A stretch of 64,000 nt of DNA from Archangium primigenium (lineage in GTDB: Bacteria > Myxococcota > Myxococcia > Myxococcales > Myxococcaceae), in contig NZ_JADWYI010000001.1 in NCBI RefSeq assembly GCF_016904885.1, positions 620,001 through 684,000 of the forward strand, given 5' to 3'. A model generated the notes under the pieces. The model had not been told where the DNA came from, did not search any database, and saw nothing but the letters and a program-made list of their open reading frames with translations. Position 1 is the stretch's first letter. Every line of letters starts with the position of its first letter. Below, one piece after another: positions 18,314 through 37,500 of this stretch. Both the position numbers and the translations under genes were made by a program.

Positions 18314-18538
18314 CGGGATGCAAGGGTTTGCCGGGCGGCCAACGGACTGACACTCCACGAAGGCGCGCGCGTGGAGGCTGGCCAACGCGCTCGCGGATTC
18401 CCTCTCCTTGCGTTGGAGCCTTTTCCACAGTGAGGTTATTTCGTTTTATCAGGATTAACGCGTCTATGTATTGATGGGGGACCGGCCGGAGACGGGCTGG
18501 GACGGGCGCGGCGGGGCCCGTCGCGTGGGGGGAGCACC

Positions 18539-26875: not shown

Positions 26876-27970
26876 CTACGTTGTCCCCAAGTTGTCCACA
26901 AGTGCGCGAGGCGCCTCGGGGGGCAGGGACAGGGTGAGGGAGGAGAAGAGCAGCTTGAGGGCCCAGTCGCGGGCGACCATGAGCTTGGTGGCGCCGAGCA
27001 CCCAGCGCACGGTGCGCCGGGACACCTTCACGGGCTTCTTCTCCAGCACGGCGGCGTTGCCGTGCAGCTTGCGCAGCGTCATGACGGCGAGGAACAGGGG
27101 CCAGAGGCAGAACAGGCGCAGGCCGTGCTCCTCGCGCGGCAGCTGCATCACGTAGTCGAAGGCCTGGCGCAGCTCGCGGTGGGCCACCGCCACGAGCTGG
27201 CCGTGGGCGCGCATGGCGGCGCCCCGGTGCGCGGGCTCCAGCAGCGTCTCGGGCGTCAGGCCGTGCTGGGCGAGCAGGGTCCGGGGCAGCCAGCAGCTGC
27301 CGCGCTCCAGGTCCTCGCGCACGTCCTTGAGGATGTTGGTGAGCTGCAGCGCGTTGCCGAACGCCACCGAGCGCGGCTCCAGCCGGGCGGCGCGCCGGGC
27401 CACCTCGGGCGAGTACCACTGGAAGAGCCGGGTGAGCATCTCGCCCACCGTGCCCGCCACGTAGTAGCAGTACTCGATCGTCTCCTCGAGGCTCTCCAGG
27501 CCCAGGCCCCCCGCGGACGCGCGGCCCTTGGCGCCCATGCGGCCCATGCCCTCGGACATGATGCGCACGCACTGGGCCACGTGCTCGCGCACCGGCGGCG
27601 CGTGCAGGGCCAGGCCCCGGAGCACCTGCGGCAGGCCCTCCACCAGGCGCACCTCGGCCTCGGGGGCCTGGGCGCGCAGCACCCCCACCGCGCGCGCGGT
27701 GAAGCGCAGGGCCTCGGGCTCCCAGCCCTCGGGCAGGGTGCACAGCCGGGCGAACTCCGTGAGCAGCTCCTCGCTCGCGGGGCCGTGCGCCTCGTCCTCC
27801 AGGGTGTCGGCGACGCGGCACAGCAGGTAGGCCACCGTCACCGCCGTGTCCAGGGGCGCGGGCAGCACGGGGATGTTCAGCGCGAAGGTGCGCGACACCG
27901 CGGGCAGCACCTCGCGGCAGAAGCGCAGGGCGGACGAGGACTCCAGCGGCGGGGTCAAGGCCAACTCCAA
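26876..27970 (-). CDS. Squalene synthase (eukaryote-like type)
   Basis: I chose TTG at 27970 because AGAGG lies 7 bases upstream; GTG at 28033 would add 21 residues. The 364-residue product has the two aspartate motifs of trans-prenyl head-to-head synthases, DTLEDE near residue 65 and DVREDLERG near residue 210. It also has YCYYVAGTVGEM, the pattern of squalene synthase rather than bacterial phytoene synthase. It should join two farnesyl diphosphates to give squalene, feeding hopanoids or sterols, which some myxobacteria make. No cyclase gene is in the window. The C-terminal half is hydrophobic, consistent with membrane attachment. The last codons contain DnaA-box-like TTGTCCACA (26892-26900). 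Confidence 0.82.
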   Translation of the reverse strand: MELALTPPLESSSALRFCREVLPAVSRTFALNIPVLPAPLDTAVTVAYLLCRVADTLEDEAHGPASEELLTEFARLCTLPEGWEPEALRFTARAVGVLRAQAPEAEVRLVEGLPQVLRGLALHAPPVREHVAQCVRIMSEGMGRMGAKGRASAGGLGLESLEETIEYCYYVAGTVGEMLTRLFQWYSPEVARRAARLEPRSVAFGNALQLTNILKDVREDLERGSCWLPRTLLAQHGLTPETLLEPAHRGAAMRAHGQLVAVAHRELRQAFDYVMQLPREEHGLRLFCLWPLFLAVMTLRKLHGNAAVLEKKPVKVSRRTVRWVLGATKLMVARDWALKLLFSSLTLSLPPEAPRALVDNLGTT

Positions 27971-28435: not shown

Positions 28436-28723
28436 ATGGCTTTCACTCAATCCACGATTCGTGAGCCGCAGCCGTCCGCGTTCACGGTCTACATTCCGGC
28501 GGCCCTCCAGACGGAGTTGGAGGAGCTGCGGTCCGACACGCGGCACCTGCTCATCGGGGAGCTGTTCCGGCTGGCGGCCCAGTCCGGGCGCGAGCGGAGC
28601 CTCTTGCCGCGCTTCGGCCCGGTGACCCTGGAGTTCCAGCTGTCCGGGTGCGACGTCACCCTGGAGCTCGACGCGGCCCGGGCCCGCCTGACCCTGGTGG
28701 CCCTGCGCGATGCCCTGCACTGA
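28436..28723 (+). CDS. Small unrecognised protein with RelE-like topology
   Basis: ATG at 28436 follows CAGGAG and gives 95 residues (MAFTQSTIREPQPSAF). The order of elements is a strand (FTVYIP), a long helix (ALQTELEELRSDTRHL; GELFRLAAQ) and C-terminal strands (VTLEFQLSG, DVTLELD, RLTLVALRDAL). That resembles the RelE/ParE toxin layout, but key catalytic residues are not identifiable and no antitoxin gene is adjacent. The fold is an inference from pattern only. The gene is followed by the DnaA-box cluster. Confidence 0.6.
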   Translation: MAFTQSTIREPQPSAFTVYIPAALQTELEELRSDTRHLLIGELFRLAAQSGRERSLLPRFGPVTLEFQLSGCDVTLELDAARARLTLVALRDALH

Positions 28724-28765: not shown

Positions 28766-29015
28766 TTGTCCACAGTCCGAGGTTGTCCCCAGGCCCCTCT
28801 GTTTCTGTACGGGTTGAAGAGTGATCTTGATCTATTAGGGGTGACAGCAGGGGGTGTGGACTTGTGGAAAAGTCCGTAAGCACCCGAGACCCTTGAGCTT
28901 TCTCGGATATGCTACATGTGGGGAAGTTGGAGCTTTTCCCCCGCCATCCACAGGCTGGGGATCAGCCGGGGACTTATCCACAGGGCGGGGGGAGTCCATC
29001 CACAGGCCGTCCACA
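28766..29015. other. Cluster of DnaA-box-like sites (candidate origin or DnaA-regulated region)
   Basis: Seven copies of the DnaA core TCCACA, or its complement, lie in 250 bases of intergenic DNA. TTATCCACA (28974-28982) and TTTTCCACA (minus, 28863-28871) match the consensus TTWTNCACA perfectly. TTGTCCACA (28766-28774), CCATCCACA (28944-28952 and 28996-29004), CCGTCCACA (29007-29015) and a reverse AAGTCCACA (28855-28863) are weaker. An AT-richer segment (about 28800-28842, with GATCTTGATCTATTAG) lies between them and could unwind. No dnaA, dnaN or gyrB gene is in the window. Confidence 0.6.
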
Positions 29016-29040: not shown

Positions 29041-30759
29041 ATGTCCCATCCCAACGAGAGCGCCGATCCGCACCGGGGCGCGCGCATCGGCCGCTACCAG
29101 GTGATTTCCCAACTCTCCGTGGGCGGCATGGCGGAGCTGTTCCTGGGCTTCACCTCGGGGCCCGGGGGTTTTCGCAAGTACGCGGCCATCAAGCGCGTGC
29201 TCCCGGATGCCCGGAGCGACTCGCAGTTCGAGCAGATGTTCCTGGACGAGGCGCGCATCACCGCGGCGCTCAACCATCCGAACATCGGGCAGGTGTTCGA
29301 GCTGGGCCGGGATGACGAGGGCCTGTTCCTGGCCATGGAGTTCATCGCGGGGCAGAACCTGGAGCAGGTGCAGAGCGTGTGCGCCCGGCGCGAGGTGCCG
29401 CTGCCGCTGGGCTTCGGCCTGTCGGTGGTGCGCGACATCTGCCTGGCGCTGCACTCCGCGCACGGCTTCACCACGCCCGCGGGCAAGCCCTTCCCCATCA
29501 TCCACCGGGACGTGGCGCACAAGAACGTGATGGTGACGTACGAGGGCGAGGTGAAGCTGCTCGACTTCGGCATCGCCAAGGCCCGCGGGGGCCGCTCGCA
29601 CACCATGGCGGGCATGGTGAAGGGCACCACGGGCTACATGTCCCCGGAGCAGGTGCGGGGCGAGCCGCTCGATGGGCGCAGCGACCTGTTCGCCGTGGGT
29701 GTCATGCTCCACGAGCTCATCACCGGGGGGCGCCTGTTCGCGGGCCACTCGGAGGTCCAGGAGATGAAGCTCATCCTGGACGCGGAGATCCCCGAGCCCG
29801 TGTGCCGCACGGAGGCCATGCCCCCGGGGCTGGTGGCGGTGGTGTACCGGGCGCTCGAGCGCAAGCGGGACGAGCGCTACGCCAACGGCCGGGAGATGGC
29901 GCGCGCCCTCGAGGCCGCGGCCGGCGGGCGGCTCTTCGACGCCGAGCAGCGCGCGGCCTTCATGGCCGAGCACTTCCACAAGCAGAAGGAGAACACCCGC
30001 CGCCTGCTGGAGAGCGCCGACGGCATCCCGGACACGGCCGGGTCCGAGGATGAGCCGTTCGCGCCCACGGCGCTCCGGCCCGCCGCGCCCGCGCCCGCGC
30101 CCGCCCCCCGGCGCAAGCCGGCGCCCTCGGCGGAGTCCTCCCAGGGCGTGCTCACCCCGGGGCGCCGGGTGCCCGCCGTGCGCGCGGCCCCGTCGGCCCC
30201 CCCGACCGAGTCCCACGCGATGGCCTCCGCCCCGGCCGCCCCCAACCCCCCGGCCGCCGCGAAGTCCCCGGCCCCGGTGTTCAAGCTGCTCTTGCTCCTG
30301 CTGGTGGCCGGAGGGCTGGGCCTGGCCGCGGTGGGCCTCGTCCAGATGGATCGCGCGGGGGTGGACGTGGGCACGCGCCTGACGCCCGAGGAGCTCTCCC
30401 CCATCACCCCCATCGCTCCCCGCGCGGGCTCGGCCCCGGCCGATGCCCCGAAGGACGCTCCGAGGGACGCCGCCCCCGCGCGCCCCGGTGAGGACGCCCC
30501 GGCCGACGCCGACGACGCCCCGGCGCGCCCGACCGGCAAGCAGGGCTGGCTCACCCTGGTGGTGATTCCGGAGGCGGAGGTGTCCCTCAACGGCCGCGTG
30601 CTGGGCAAGACGCCGCTGTTCAAGGTCCAGGTGCCCGCGGGCCAGCACCGCCTGCGCATCAAGGGCGCGGACGGCAAGCGGCGCGAGCTGTCGGTGCCCA
30701 TCGCCGCGGGCAAGACGGCCCAGTTCAAGCTGTCCCTGACGGACATTCCCGAGCGCTGA
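29041..30759 (+). CDS. Membrane Ser/Thr kinase with PEGA domain, second copy
   Basis: ATG at 29041 (MSHPNESADPHRGARIGRYQ) starts a 572-residue protein; the longer frame would run through the DnaA-box cluster. The kinase domain (about 15-285) has SVGGMAELFLG, HRDVAHKN, DFGIAK and SPEQ. A Pro/Ala-rich linker leads to a membrane segment near 413-435 (LLLLLLVAGGLGLAAVGLV) and a PEGA domain at about 500-570. It is a clear paralogue of the kinase at 23875, with a shorter linker. The FHA-containing sigma54 activator gene follows by 80 bases; FHA domains bind phosphothreonine, so that protein is a plausible partner. Confidence 0.92.
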   Translation: MSHPNESADPHRGARIGRYQVISQLSVGGMAELFLGFTSGPGGFRKYAAIKRVLPDARSDSQFEQMFLDEARITAALNHPNIGQVFELGRDDEGLFLAMEFIAGQNLEQVQSVCARREVPLPLGFGLSVVRDICLALHSAHGFTTPAGKPFPIIHRDVAHKNVMVTYEGEVKLLDFGIAKARGGRSHTMAGMVKGTTGYMSPEQVRGEPLDGRSDLFAVGVMLHELITGGRLFAGHSEVQEMKLILDAEIPEPVCRTEAMPPGLVAVVYRALERKRDERYANGREMARALEAAAGGRLFDAEQRAAFMAEHFHKQKENTRRLLESADGIPDTAGSEDEPFAPTALRPAAPAPAPAPRRKPAPSAESSQGVLTPGRRVPAVRAAPSAPPTESHAMASAPAAPNPPAAAKSPAPVFKLLLLLLVAGGLGLAAVGLVQMDRAGVDVGTRLTPEELSPITPIAPRAGSAPADAPKDAPRDAAPARPGEDAPADADDAPARPTGKQGWLTLVVIPEAEVSLNGRVLGKTPLFKVQVPAGQHRLRIKGADGKRRELSVPIAAGKTAQFKLSLTDIPER

Positions 30760-30838
30760 GAGCCGCCCCGTCGCGGGATTTCCAGCCTCCCGCGACGGCG
30801 GTGTCCCACGGCCATGAAGCGTGTTAGCGTGCCGGGCC

Positions 30839-32203
<1,365 letters not shown>

Positions 32204-32307
32204 GCACGGGGTGACGGGCCCACGAGGGCTCGTGCTATAGGTGCGAGCCGGGCCACCCTCCGGGGTGGCTTCGCCTCTTCCACCCGTCACCTCGAGGAAT
32301 CGCCGCC

Positions 32308-32655
32308 ATGTCCACCGACACCCCCGCGCAGCCCCAGAGCCCCTCGTCCCCGTCGCCGGACAAGCTGGCCATGCTGCGCCAGATGGAGGCGATGATGACC
32401 ACCTTCGCGCAGCTCGTGAAGCTCATCGCCCCCCAGCTCGCCGCGGCCCCCGAGAACACCCCCTCCCCCCAGGCCGCCGCCGAGGAGAGCAGCAAGGCCG
32501 TGCAGATGAGCCGCGCGCTCGTCGAGGGCGCCGACGAGCTCAAGGCCCTGCTCGCGCAGATCCCCGGCTCGGACCTCAAGGAGACCGCCCAGAAGCTCGG
32601 CAAGATCGTCGAGTCCACCTCGGCCCGCATCGACTCGATCGCCGCCCAGAAGTAG
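32308..32655 (+). CDS. Small unrecognised helical protein (115 aa)
   Basis: The product has a Ser/Pro/Gln-rich start and then long amphipathic helices (KLAMLRQMEAMMTTFAQLVK; AQKLGKIVESTSARIDSIAA). No signal peptide or known motif is seen. The gene lies 104 bases after the FHA activator gene. Two half-sites of the local palindrome flank its leader: GGTGACGGG at 32210-32218 and CCCGTCACC at 32283-32291. It is probably part of the same locus. Function unknown. Confidence 0.7.
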   Translation: MSTDTPAQPQSPSSPSPDKLAMLRQMEAMMTTFAQLVKLIAPQLAAAPENTPSPQAAAEESSKAVQMSRALVEGADELKALLAQIPGSDLKETAQKLGKIVESTSARIDSIAAQK

Positions 32656-32770
32656 CCCGAGGCGTCGCCTCGAACGTCGCCTCCGCTCCCACCCCGTGGG
32701 ACGCGCGCCAGGGCCTCCGGACTCCACCGGGGGCCCTGTGTCGTTTCCGGCCCCTGCCGCGCTTCCAAGC

Positions 32771-32806
32771 GGTGACTCGAGTCACCCGGTGGTGACTCCC
32801 GTCACC
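32771..32806. promoter_or_regulatory. Two enhancer-like palindromes upstream of a sigma54 promoter
   Basis: GGTGACTCGAGTCACC (32771-32786, a perfect 16-base palindrome) and GGTGACTCCCGTCACC (32791-32806) start 20 bases apart, about two helical turns. They end 134 bases before a sigma54 promoter, normal enhancer distance. Three more copies occur upstream of the M4 protease gene. The rest of this 336-base gap holds no gene. Confidence 0.7.
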
Positions 32807-32940
32807 AGGGCCCTCGCCCCGCCCAACCCTGGCCTTCGACGCGTCGCGTTCTCCTGAGAAGTGAGAGGGAGTCATGTTTTCGCCCACTTAGGCGCTGATG
32901 TATGCCTGATGTAGGCACATGAGGGTGACCTGTAGCTCCC

Positions 32941-32956
32941 TGGATTACCTTTTGCA
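32941..32956 (+). promoter_or_regulatory. Predicted sigma54 promoter
   Basis: TGGATTACCTTTTGCA carries the invariant GG and GC with the exact 10-base spacing and a perfect -12 block TTGCA. It lies 35 bases before the ATG at 32992. Confidence 0.68.
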
Positions 32957-32991
32957 GGGTGGAAGTGTGCACCCATCGCACAGAGGCATCC

Positions 32992-33996
32992 ATGGACCTC
33001 CAACTCGCATACACGGCCATTCCCCGGCGCACCCTGGGCTTCCGGTGGGTCAGTGAGCCGCGTCCGGAGCTGCTGCCGGCCCCGAAGAAGCGGGAGGAAG
33101 CGCCGGTGGCGCCCGTGTCCGCCGCGCCGGGAGCGGGCAAGGCCCCGGCCAAGGCGGAGCGCGAGAAGGCGGAGCGCAAGGCCGCGGGCCGCGCCGGGAG
33201 CGCGAAGGCCTCCGTGCCGCCCGTGCCCGAGGAGCCCGAGGGCCGCAAGCGCCTGCGGGCCGCGATCGCGGACCGGCTGGGGCGGGATTTGGCGGACGTG
33301 GTGCAGCGGCTGGAGGGCTTCCTGGCCAACGCGAGCGCGAGCCGCTCGGGCACGGTGAACCTGTCGCTGGTGCTCAGCGAGAGCTTCGTGGCCCAGGAGC
33401 TGTGGAAGGAGCCCCGGCGCTCGCCCGAGGCCCGGGCCCGCCTGGAGTTCACCCTGGGCCTGGGGCCCCGCACGTCCCCGGCGGAGCTGGGCGGCGCGCT
33501 CGTGGCCGAGGTGCACCGCGCCTTCACCGAGTTCCGCGAGGGCCCGGCCGGCCAGGAGGCCCTCGGGCGCTACGCGGACATGCTCGCGCGCTACGAGGCG
33601 TGCGGCGTGGCGCTGGTGCTGGCGGGCCACGACACGGGCCCCATGCTGGAGGAGGTCCAGCGCCTGGGCCTCGCGGTGGCGCCGGACTTCACCCGCTCGC
33701 TGCTCCTGGAGGAGCGCGTGCTGGCGGTGGGGCCGGGGGCGTCGCGCGGTGTCCTCGCGCCCACCCAGGTGCTCGTCGCGGGGCTGAGCACCCCCCAGCT
33801 CGGCATGGTCGTCGCCCAGCTGCGCCAGCTCAATCCTCGGCTCACCAACCGCCAGCTGCGGCACGTGCTCGTCACCGTGCTCAACGAGGTCCGCCACGAG
33901 CAGCCCCGCACCCTCGGCCGCGCCCAGGTCGAGCGCATGCAGGAGCTCGCTCGCCAGCTGCTCAGGCTGCAGGTGACGGGCTACCTCTGCGCGTGA
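32992..33996 (+). CDS. Unrecognised protein, paralogue of the next gene
   Basis: ATG at 32992 follows AGAGG; product 334 residues. The first 75 residues are a Lys/Ala/Pro-rich linker; there is no signal peptide. Residues of about 85-330 form a conserved module shared with the next gene: VNLSLVLSES, ELWKEP, an HRAFTEF/HQCFEEF segment, DTGPM, RSLL, VAGLS, QLG, VAQLR and LNPRLTN. The family is not one I can name. The module is helical and has no catalytic motif I can see. Its -24/-12 promoter and enhancer-like repeats lie directly upstream. The pair are probably co-transcribed (78-base gap). Confidence 0.75.
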   Translation: MDLQLAYTAIPRRTLGFRWVSEPRPELLPAPKKREEAPVAPVSAAPGAGKAPAKAEREKAERKAAGRAGSAKASVPPVPEEPEGRKRLRAAIADRLGRDLADVVQRLEGFLANASASRSGTVNLSLVLSESFVAQELWKEPRRSPEARARLEFTLGLGPRTSPAELGGALVAEVHRAFTEFREGPAGQEALGRYADMLARYEACGVALVLAGHDTGPMLEEVQRLGLAVAPDFTRSLLLEERVLAVGPGASRGVLAPTQVLVAGLSTPQLGMVVAQLRQLNPRLTNRQLRHVLVTVLNEVRHEQPRTLGRAQVERMQELARQLLRLQVTGYLCA

Positions 33997-34074
33997 ACAC
34001 CCGGCCGGGACCCCCCATGGAATCCCCTCGCGCTTGGGTGTACAAGAACACTCTCACGCAAGGGGTCCTCCATC

Positions 34075-35316
34075 ATGAGCGTCCGGTTGGGACAGCCGGC
34101 TCCGGGCATCGCGCCCCGTCCGCAGCAGCAGCAGCAGCAGGCGCTGACGAACAACCCCAAGGTGCGCGAGCGCGAGGACCCCCGCGCGAAGGACACCGGC
34201 AAGGGCTCCTCGGGCACGGGCAAGGCGGGCTCGGGTGACAAGTCCGTCTCCGGTGGGGGCGGCGGCGCCAAGGGACTGCGCAACCGCGACGGCATGGACA
34301 ACGGCGGCCAGGTCGGCGCCTGGAACGGCGGCGGCTTCAGCGGCGTCGAGGAGAACACCAACGCGCGCTTCAAGGCCCCCGCGGGCCGCGCTGGCGGCCC
34401 CGGCTCCCAGCAGCAGGCGCTCGCGGGCTACCCCCAGCGCGAGGGCATGCAGGCGCAGCACCTGCGCGAGTCGCCCCAAGCGGGCCAGCTGGATCTGCCG
34501 CGCGGCGAGCAGCAGCAGCAGCGCGGCGCGAGCGAGCGCGAGGGCCCCAACGCCGCCCAGCTCGCGCTCGAGGGCCGCGCCCGACTGCGCGCCGCGGTGC
34601 TGGAGCGCCTGCTCAACGGCATGAAGGACGTGCACGGGCGCTTGGCCAAGTTCCTCAAGACCCCGGGCCGCCTGGGCGTGGTGAACCTGTCGCTGGTGCT
34701 CAGCGAGAGCTCCCTCACCTACGAGCTGTGGAAGGAGCCCAGCGGCGTGCCCGAGCGCCGGGCCCGCATGGCCCAGACGCTCGGCGTGCCCGTGGAGGCG
34801 AGCGACGCGCAGCTCCTGCACGCGCTCACCGTCGAGGTGCACCAGTGCTTCGAGGAGTTCGTCTCCAGCCGCCCCGGCCGGGAGATCCGCGCGGAGTACG
34901 AGGCGGTGCTCGAGGGCTACGAGGCCGCGGGCGTGCTGCCGGTGATGCCGGGCTTCGACACCGGCCCCATGCAGGCGGAGCTCACGCGCGTGGGGCTGCC
35001 CCACGACAAGGACTTCGCCCGCTCGCTGCTCATCGATCCGCGCATCCTCGCGGTGGGCATCAGCCCGGATGACGGCGTGCCGCCCCAGGTCATGGTGGCG
35101 GGCCTGAGCGTGGCCCAGCTCGGCACCATCGTCGCCCAGCTGCGCCGGCTCAACCCCCGGCTCACCAACACCCAGGTGCTCAACCTGATGATGCTGGCCT
35201 CCACGGACATCAAGAAGGCCATGCGCAAGGCGATCGGCCAGTCCGAGGTGGATGGCGTGCAGGACATGGCGCGCCAGCTCTTGCGGCTGCAGGCCGTGGA
35301 GCTGCTCTTCCCCTGA
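34075..35316 (+). CDS. Unrecognised protein with Gln/Gly-rich head, paralogue of the previous gene
   Basis: The 413-residue product has a disordered-looking first 150 residues: a six-Gln run, Gly runs and scattered charged residues. The C-terminal 250 residues match the previous gene's module (NLSLVLSESS, YELWKEPSG, GFDTGPM, FARSLLID, VAGLSVAQLG, LNPRLTN). No export signal or enzyme motif is seen. It follows its paralogue closely and is likely under the same sigma54 promoter. A shared module with different heads suggests a structural or assembly role, but that is a guess. Confidence 0.75.
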   Translation: MSVRLGQPAPGIAPRPQQQQQQALTNNPKVREREDPRAKDTGKGSSGTGKAGSGDKSVSGGGGGAKGLRNRDGMDNGGQVGAWNGGGFSGVEENTNARFKAPAGRAGGPGSQQQALAGYPQREGMQAQHLRESPQAGQLDLPRGEQQQQRGASEREGPNAAQLALEGRARLRAAVLERLLNGMKDVHGRLAKFLKTPGRLGVVNLSLVLSESSLTYELWKEPSGVPERRARMAQTLGVPVEASDAQLLHALTVEVHQCFEEFVSSRPGREIRAEYEAVLEGYEAAGVLPVMPGFDTGPMQAELTRVGLPHDKDFARSLLIDPRILAVGISPDDGVPPQVMVAGLSVAQLGTIVAQLRRLNPRLTNTQVLNLMMLASTDIKKAMRKAIGQSEVDGVQDMARQLLRLQAVELLFP

Positions 35317-35403
35317 GGCGCGAAGCTGGACGCCGCCGTCCCCCGTGCTATTCGGGACGGCGCGCGTCGCGTGAAGGCCCCTCCCCGGGTCTCCGCCGCC
35401 CCT

Positions 35404-35487
35404 GGTGACTCCCGTCACCACCTGGTGACTCCCGTCACCCCCGCCGCCCCTCGGGGCTCCCCTTCCCTCCTGGTGACTCCCGTCACC
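35404..35487. promoter_or_regulatory. Three enhancer-like palindromes upstream of the M4 protease gene
   Basis: GGTGACTCCCGTCACC occurs identically at 35404-35419, 35424-35439 and 35472-35487. The first two are 20 bases apart, the same spacing as the pair at 32771-32806. The last copy ends 74 bases before a sigma54 promoter. The surrounding 336-base gap has no gene. Confidence 0.72.
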
Positions 35488-35561
35488 CCCCCCACCCCCG
35501 CCAGTCCCCGCGGTCCTCGTCAAATCAAGCACTTGCACGGAAGTAAGCATGATGCGGCATG

Positions 35562-35577
35562 TGGCACACATCATGCT
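35562..35577 (+). promoter_or_regulatory. Predicted sigma54 promoter
   Basis: TGGCACACATCATGCT has a perfect -24 block TGGCAC and the GC of the -12 block at exact spacing. It lies 75 bases before the protease ATG at 35653. Confidence 0.7.
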
Positions 35578-35652
35578 CTATGAGTCTTACATCAACGCCC
35601 CTCACTGAACGCCCCCTTCCTCCCGCCGGTCCCCACCTCGAAAGCGCTCGCC

Positions 35653-37500
35653 ATGCAGATTTCCAACAAGAACCCGGCCGTTGCCCCCGTCGTCACCCAG
35701 CCCACCGCTCCCGCCGCCCAGGAGTCGGCCAGCGCCCCCCAGGCGTCGCAGGCCCCCGCGGCCACGGGCTTCAGTGAGAAGTCGAGCTTCACGCCGGCCG
35801 CCGCCAACCTCGCCGCCGCGGCGCGCAGCACGGGCCCGCTCAACCTCCAGAGCGCCGAGGCCCAGACGGCCATCCAGAAGTCCATGGCCCACCTGCAGCA
35901 GACGAGCACCACCCACCGCGGCATCGTCCCCAGCGCCCCGGTGTCCGCGTCGCTCTCGCCCAAGCAGGTGTTCAAGGACGACCTGGGCATGACGCACGTG
36001 CGCATGGACCGGCAGCACGAGGGCGTGAAGGTGTTCGGCGAGCAGGTCATCAGCCACCTGGACAAGGAGGGCAACGTGGCGGACGTCACGGGCTCGCTCT
36101 CCAACATCCCCACGGGCCTGGGCGCCTCGCCGGCGAAGATCACCGCGAAGGAAGCGCTCGACGTGGCCCAGAAGGCCTTCGGCAAGGAGGCCACGCGTGA
36201 GCCCACCTCCGAGCGCGTCATCGTCCAGGGTCAGGACGGCCAGTACCGCTCCGCCTACCACGTGCAGCTCGACAAGCTCGCGGACTTCAAGCCCGGCGAG
36301 GGCCCGAGCCGCATGAACTACTTCGTGGACGCCAACAGCGGCGAGCTGCTGGAGAGCTTCGACCAGATCGGCGGCTTCGAGCACGAGGTGAAGCACGCCC
36401 AGGAGCACGCCGCCGGCGAGGTCGAGGGCGACATCGAGACGCACCACCCCGGCGCGGACTCGTGCGAGGACGTGGACGCGTCCCCCGAGGAGGGCCCCAC
36501 CAAGCCCCTGCCCCCCAAGGCCCAGGGTGACGACCAGACGATGTACAGCGGCAAGGTGGACCTCTCCACCACGAAGCAGGCCGACGGCACCTTCACCCTC
36601 GAGGACAAGTCCCGCGGCGGTGGCGTGGTGACCTACGACGGCCAGAACAAGACGCGCGCCAGCGGCCAGACGAAGTTCACCGACGCGAACGACGCGTGGG
36701 GCGAGGTGACGGACGACGCGCGCACCAAGGCGGCGGTGGACGCGCACTACGGCGCCGAGATGACGTACGACTTCCTCAAGGACGTGCTCGGCCGCAACTC
36801 CCTGGACGACAAGGGCGAGAAGCTCGTGTCCTACGTCCACGTGGACAAGAACCTCGTCAACGCCTTCTGGGACGGCGAGAAGATGAGCTACGGCGATGGC
36901 GACGGCAAGACGGCCGGTCCGCTCACCACGCTGGACATCGCGGGCCATGAAATCGCCCACGGCCTGACCGAGCGCACCGCGGGCCTCGTGTACCGGGGTG
37001 AGTCGGGCGGCCTGAACGAGGCCTTCAGCGACATCATGGGCACGGGCGTGGAGTGGTACGCGTCGCAGAAGAACCCGAATGTGAAGTTCGACTGGAGCAT
37101 GGGCGAGGACGCCTGGAAGCCCGGAAACAAGACGGGCGAGGCGCTGCGCTACATGAACGACCCGACCCAGGACAACTACTCCATCGACAACTACAAGAAC
37201 TACCCGAAGCAGCAGGAGGTCCACGGCTCCAGCGGCATCGCCAACAACGCCTTCTATCTGCTCACCGAGGGCGGCAAGAACCGCACGTCGGGCCTGGAAG
37301 TGAAGGACGGCCTCGGCATGGAGAAGAGCCTGAAGATCTTCGGCCGGGCGCTCACCACGTACATGACGCCCAACACCACGTTCTCCCAGGCGCGTGACGC
37401 CACCATCAAGGCGGCCACGGACCTGCACGGCGCCAACTCGGTGGAAGTGCAGAAGGTGAAGGACGCCTGGACCGCGGTGGGGGTCGAGTCCAAGAAGTAA
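35653..37500 (+). CDS. M4 (thermolysin-type) metalloprotease lacking a signal peptide
   Basis: The 615-residue protein has the M4 order: an FTP/PepSY-type propeptide in the first 280 residues, then the catalytic domain with zinc motif HEIAH at residue 432 and the third-ligand segment GGLNEAFSD. The C-terminal domain includes the conserved HGSSGIANNAFYLL. Unlike ordinary secreted thermolysins, the N-terminus (MQISNKNPAVAPVVTQPTAP) has no hydrophobic export signal and is Pro/Ala/Gln-rich. It may leave the cell by another route or act inside, for example after lysis or during sporulation. A sigma54 promoter and three enhancer-like repeats precede it. A terminator hairpin follows. Confidence 0.92.
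   Translation: MQISNKNPAVAPVVTQPTAPAAQESASAPQASQAPAATGFSEKSSFTPAAANLAAAARSTGPLNLQSAEAQTAIQKSMAHLQQTSTTHRGIVPSAPVSASLSPKQVFKDDLGMTHVRMDRQHEGVKVFGEQVISHLDKEGNVADVTGSLSNIPTGLGASPAKITAKEALDVAQKAFGKEATREPTSERVIVQGQDGQYRSAYHVQLDKLADFKPGEGPSRMNYFVDANSGELLESFDQIGGFEHEVKHAQEHAAGEVEGDIETHHPGADSCEDVDASPEEGPTKPLPPKAQGDDQTMYSGKVDLSTTKQADGTFTLEDKSRGGGVVTYDGQNKTRASGQTKFTDANDAWGEVTDDARTKAAVDAHYGAEMTYDFLKDVLGRNSLDDKGEKLVSYVHVDKNLVNAFWDGEKMSYGDGDGKTAGPLTTLDIAGHEIAHGLTERTAGLVYRGESGGLNEAFSDIMGTGVEWYASQKNPNVKFDWSMGEDAWKPGNKTGEALRYMNDPTQDNYSIDNYKNYPKQQEVHGSSGIANNAFYLLTEGGKNRTSGLEVKDGLGMEKSLKIFGRALTTYMTPNTTFSQARDATIKAATDLHGANSVEVQKVKDAWTAVGVESKK

Follow-up and report, generated by a model that had tools for sequence, protein, structure and literature searches.

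The window analyzed here is a 64-kb stretch (C1:620001-684000) of the 9.49-Mb genome of Archangium primigenium (G000); positions without a prefix are counted within it. The locus of interest, at 28766-29015, is flanked on the left by a small conserved ORF (28436-28723, + strand; 95 aa, no Pfam match), to the left of which lies a squalene/phytoene synthase gene on the - strand, and on the right by a gene encoding a Ser/Thr protein kinase with a PEGA domain (29041-30759, + strand). The original prediction had placed seven TCCACA cores, on both strands, in this interval, and all of them are present (28769+, 28855-, 28863-, 28947+, 28977+, 28999+ and 29010+), as are the two perfect consensus DnaA boxes, TTTTCCACA at 28863-28871 (-) and TTATCCACA at 28974-28982 (+). 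On the basis of density, uniqueness and orthologous positions in related genomes, the interval 28766-29015 (no strand assigned), which includes all seven boxes and the unwinding region between them, is delineated as a predicted oriC core.

The leftmost component is a distal DnaA box TTGTCCACA (28766-28774, +) that is missing from some relatives, followed by a weak box with two mismatches, TTGTCCCCA (28783-28791, +), and by an AT-richer block with a conserved TTGATC element (28799-28838, +), a putative DNA unwinding element. This block, which had been noted between the box groups from the outset, reaches 45-60% AT in 40-bp windows over ~28800-28880, compared to ~20-35% in most flanking windows, an enrichment that is modest in absolute terms. 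The DnaA-trio position (28836-28850, +) holds the degenerate run TAG GGG TGA CAG CAG, where congeners have TAG AAG AGG TAA CAG CAG. The GC-rich 12-bp spacer next to it contains a weak tandem DnaA box AAGTCCACA (28855-28863, -) and leads to the perfect box TTTTCCACA, the anchor of the putative unwinding module; these two tandem boxes (28855, 28863) are located where Myxococcus has a TTGTCCCCA-type box. The most conserved element of the locus, TGCTACATGTGGGnAA (28910-28925, +), includes a weak box TTCCCCACA on the - strand (28917-28925). The right part is occupied by four same-direction boxes (28944-29015, +; cores 28947, 28977, 28999 and 29010), with TTATCCACA among them, that are spaced by 30, 22 and 11 bp start to start, roughly in helical phase. 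The promoter region of the kinase gene overlaps this array, which ends 25 bp ahead of the kinase start codon.

Such density is far above chance, as originally claimed: when the 64-kb window was simulated 300 times with a second-order Markov model, the maximum number of TCCACA cores per 250 bp never exceeded 4, against 7 in the actual sequence. The consensus TTWTCCACA occurs only nine times in the entire 9.49-Mb genome, with two of these copies located within 28766-29015, and three same-direction cores at equally tight spacing are found nowhere else in this genome. Beyond the cluster, the window contains isolated good DnaA boxes, namely TTTTCCACA at 18421-18429 and TTGTCCACA at 26892-26900, the latter also reported previously and identical to the distal box at 28766.

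The motif TGCTACATGTGGGnAA..CCACA, derived from the conserved element, is present in one copy per genome in 59 of the 96 genomes of the family, representing 8 of the 26 genera. When a collection of genomes from 84,980 species (one genome per species) was scanned, 23 of the 24 motif matches were window-type sites; the taxa that carry the motif are Myxococcus, including M. xanthus, Corallococcus, Pyxidicoccus, Archangium and Citreicoccus. A match in Faecalimonas falls inside a repeat array and was discarded as a chance occurrence. The array spacing of 30-22-11 or 30-21-11 recurs, across Myxococcaceae, in most of the related genomes that were read. Separately, a Myxococcus-type origin was observed in a record titled Comamonas sp. 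KCTC 72670 (L131, BNCN01000009.1), for which a wrong label or contamination is the probable explanation.

A prediction of this locus already exists in the sister genus Myxococcus. For M. hansupus, similarity to DoriC entries, among them ORI92210206 from M. xanthus and ORI94030396 from M. fulvus, was used to place oriC at 8,613,829-8,614,077, dnaA being ~31 kb distant (PMC4765838). In genome G093, which we take to be that of M. hansupus given that the coordinates agree, the motif occurs once, at C1:8,613,971-8,614,013, within the published oriC interval. In M. xanthus, ori has been set at position 1 by skew, with parABS ~30 kb away (PMC3778016; cf. PMC3899335). Direct origin mapping was not found in the literature searched, most subscription journals being outside its reach. 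The present analysis contributes the unwinding module, the conservation of the site in single copy and a comparative series of origin-dnaA separation.

The unwinding module was assessed with the published BUS rule, under which a DnaA box lies 0-16 bp from at least three NAN trinucleotides on the proper strand (PMC8287927). This rule is passed by 24 of the 35 orthologous origins compared, with a 12-bp spacer in every one of them, and by 30 of 4000 random windows (0.75%); the 35 origins are related sequences, so that the 24 passes do not amount to 24 independent events. The trio run of the window itself, with only two consecutive NAN trinucleotides, fails the strict rule.

Nucleotide skew was analyzed for the window's genome over one uninterrupted 400-kb stretch and 23 samples of 20 kb. 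The cumulative GC skew drops to ~650 kb, is flat to 760 kb and rises thereafter, with the cluster located at the left edge of this floor; of the two minima, the GC one falls at 742.9 kb, close to mnmG, and the keto one at 661 kb. The opposite sign change appears in the sampled stretches at ~5.5-5.95 Mb, roughly half a chromosome away. In all four genomes analyzed, the skew is negative to the left of the cluster, positive to the right of mnmG, and near zero or mixed in between. The distance from the skew minima to the cluster is 0.6-1.0 kb for both minima in the complete genome G025, 19 kb (at +19 kb) in G002, 12-94 kb in G000 and 126-134 kb in G010, where both minima are closer to mnmG than to the cluster. 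Thus, the skew brackets the origin to the interval between the cluster and mnmG and, in G025, points at the cluster. The rightward gene run between 29 kb and 37.5 kb, proposed as a sign of a leading strand departing from this point, stands as an observation, with all genes from 29041 to 37500 pointing right; as a sign of a leading strand it is weak, since the genes in this region show only a mild orientation bias.

The dnaA gene, correctly predicted to lie outside the window, was found 60 kb to the right of the cluster, at C1:709.1 kb. The proposed comparison of gene locations gave a mixed outcome, with dnaA 60 kb away to the right and dnaN 283 kb away on the other side of the cluster; the resulting dnaN-dnaA distance is 343 kb, in contrast to most genomes of other families, in which the two genes are adjacent. 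In the genomes G012, G023, G029 and G035, dnaN still shares a contig with dnaA. The dnaA promoter was rejected as a candidate origin given that no boxes are present there in G000. From the cluster, mnmG is 93 kb and parAB 99 kb away; mnmG-rsmG, 13 parS sites and parAB are all less than 100 kb from it. The 13 parS-like sites (of the TGTTCCACGTGGAACG type; C1:746608-747658) are located directly upstream of parAB, ~98 kb from the cluster. The mnmG-rsmG gap (C1:743649-743741) contains TTGTCCACA and TTATCCACA. A pair of boxes 84 bp apart is conserved in most relatives of both classes described below, the second box overlapping the rsmG start codon; these boxes possibly represent a DnaA-regulated rsmG promoter.

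Two classes of relatives were distinguished by the arrangement of the cluster, the kinase gene and dnaA. Class II consists of the family genomes with the site and dnaA on one contig, in the order cluster, kinase, 17-87 kb, dnaA (reverse), mnmG. Class I includes G013, G005 and G008, as well as G021 with a larger gap, the assignments to both classes being based on the genomes read; in class I, only a few kb separate the kinase ortholog from dnaA, with an unwinding module upstream of the kinase gene that passes the BUS rule in three of the four genomes, and a separate cluster of 4-7 boxes is located between dnaA and rpmH. In seven of the eight class II genomes, G000 included, no TCCACA was detected within 700 bp upstream of dnaA; G025 has two. 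G058 represents another family of the order; between its dnaA and dnaN genes lies a module that combines five trios with the same 12-bp spacer and a perfect TTATCCACA box. A weaker module adjoins the 3' end of dnaA in G027. Neither genome shows a kinase match on the 3-kb locus. Two single-contig genomes that belong to another family, G044 and G056, also have three-box clusters (L005 and L007) at a distance of 95-107 kb from dnaA; the one in L007 adjoins an ORF resembling the beginning of a replicative helicase (dnaB). These clusters were considered as parallel cases and set aside, with no kinase match and no trio module discernible by eye.

Taken together, these observations strongly favor the chromosome origin among the options initially offered for the cluster: it is present in single copy and conserved across genera in a conserved box register, and relatives carry an unwinding module at this site. 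Additional evidence comes from the occurrence of the same module between dnaA and dnaN in another family, from the location of the cluster, where the skew floor begins on the left, and from the overlap with the published oriC prediction. We therefore predict, from sequence comparison, that the cluster at 28766-29015 is oriC, the DnaA-dependent origin of the chromosome, with a probability of roughly 0.93. The most substantial competitor is the mnmG-rsmG gap (C1:743.65-743.74 kb): if the working origin were located there, beside the parS cluster, the window cluster would be an accessory DnaA-binding region. This placement agrees with the GC cumulative minimum at 742.9 kb, with the presence of TTGTCCACA and TTATCCACA and of the 13 parS sites 3 kb beyond, and with the conservation of the 84-bp-apart box pair. 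However, the gap contains just two or three good boxes, and the pair is present also in the class I genome G013, in which the box clusters sit near dnaA; therefore, the pair behaves like a fixed feature of the rsmG promoter or start codon. Given also that the skew minimum of G025 is at the window-type cluster, away from mnmG, and that the published M. hansupus oriC is a window-type site, we consider an origin at mnmG-rsmG very improbable.

The two remaining possibilities do not involve a replication start at the cluster. Selection of the boxes for gene regulation, as a DnaA-controlled kinase promoter, would fit the end of the array so close to the kinase start codon and the persistent adjacency of the kinase ortholog in both classes; nevertheless, the same type of module is found beside dnaA in G058 and G027, where the kinase is not matched on the 3-kb locus, and trios with a fixed spacer suit unwinding rather than transcription, so that we assign this explanation a very small chance indeed. 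A secondary effect of DnaA on the kinase promoter, alongside the origin role, is possible. A site for DnaA titration or DnaA nucleotide exchange (datA- or DARS-like) would account for dense boxes far from dnaA. Such a control site is unlikely given the origin features: relatives carry an unwinding module, which has a counterpart between dnaA and dnaN in another family, and the cluster borders the skew floor. No second comparable cluster exists in the genome; as a full explanation, with no replication start, it appears the least credible of all.

If the cluster is oriC, DnaA would bind, melt and initiate replication at this site. DnaA-ATP might load on two tandem boxes, the strong one at 28863 and its weak neighbor, and from there reach over the 12-bp spacer to the trio-like strand, so that the AT-richer block opens at ~28799-28850. 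More DnaA would assemble on the four-box array (28944-29015) and the conserved element at 28910, and these parts may aid opening. The helicase would load next, and two forks would depart from the cluster.

Comparison with relatives suggests that the origin arose beside dnaA and was later parted from it by 17-87 kb. In the dnaA tree, the groups cluster and the root is left unplaced; because the tree does not fix the root, the direction of the separation is one that we infer, its polarity being based on two reference loci, G058 and G027. Under this scenario, the origin would be a former element of the dnaA-dnaN spacer that parted first from dnaN; the kinase gene would then have come between the origin and dnaA, and 17-87 kb would finally have been interposed in the Myxococcus-Archangium lineage. 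A broader proposal, which we offer as speculative and rather doubtful, is that the origin left dnaA stepwise, that the dnaA promoter lost most of its boxes, perhaps along with autoregulation, and that the Ser/Thr kinase gene, with its promoter in the origin, became the constant neighbor and could link initiation to signalling. We give even odds to an addition to the oriC interpretation, according to which the class I origin is bipartite, consisting of the dnaA-rpmH cluster and the kinase-side module, and class II became monopartite by losing the dnaA part. Class I genomes have 4-7 boxes in the dnaA-rpmH interval, as opposed to none within 700 bp upstream of dnaA in nearly all class II genomes; this is compatible with such a loss, as is the kinase-side module that passes the BUS rule in three of the four class I genomes. 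Conversely, the dnaA-side cluster may serve only dnaA autoregulation, and the polarity is again that of the two reference loci and an open root.

The prediction that the cluster is oriC provides a testable 250-bp origin for large, social bacterial genomes, the origins of which so far come mostly from skew and database prediction, and the relatives supply intermediate stages of origin-dnaA separation. It also opens the question whether initiation control changes when the dnaA promoter loses its DnaA boxes and whether the neighboring kinase gene matters.

Among known systems, the site is most directly comparable to the predicted oriC of M. hansupus, with which it shares the locus, a similar length (249 bp there) and a distant dnaA (~31 kb there compared to 60 kb here), although it belongs to another species of the family and its trio run is more degenerate. 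Class I genomes resemble the bipartite origins of B. subtilis, Helicobacter pylori and Clostridioides difficile in that DnaA-box regions are located on both sides of dnaA (plus the kinase gene), one of them with an unwinding module. By contrast, the dnaA promoter is devoid of a box cluster in most genomes read from the lineage of the window, where 17-87 kb separate dnaA from the site. With regard to the unwinding module, the window itself differs from the Bacillus subtilis-type BUS, composed of tandem DnaA boxes, a GC spacer and DnaA-trios, in having just two consecutive NAN trinucleotides, whereas most relatives match its geometry and strand polarity, with a spacer of 12 bp compared to the published peak of 10-13.
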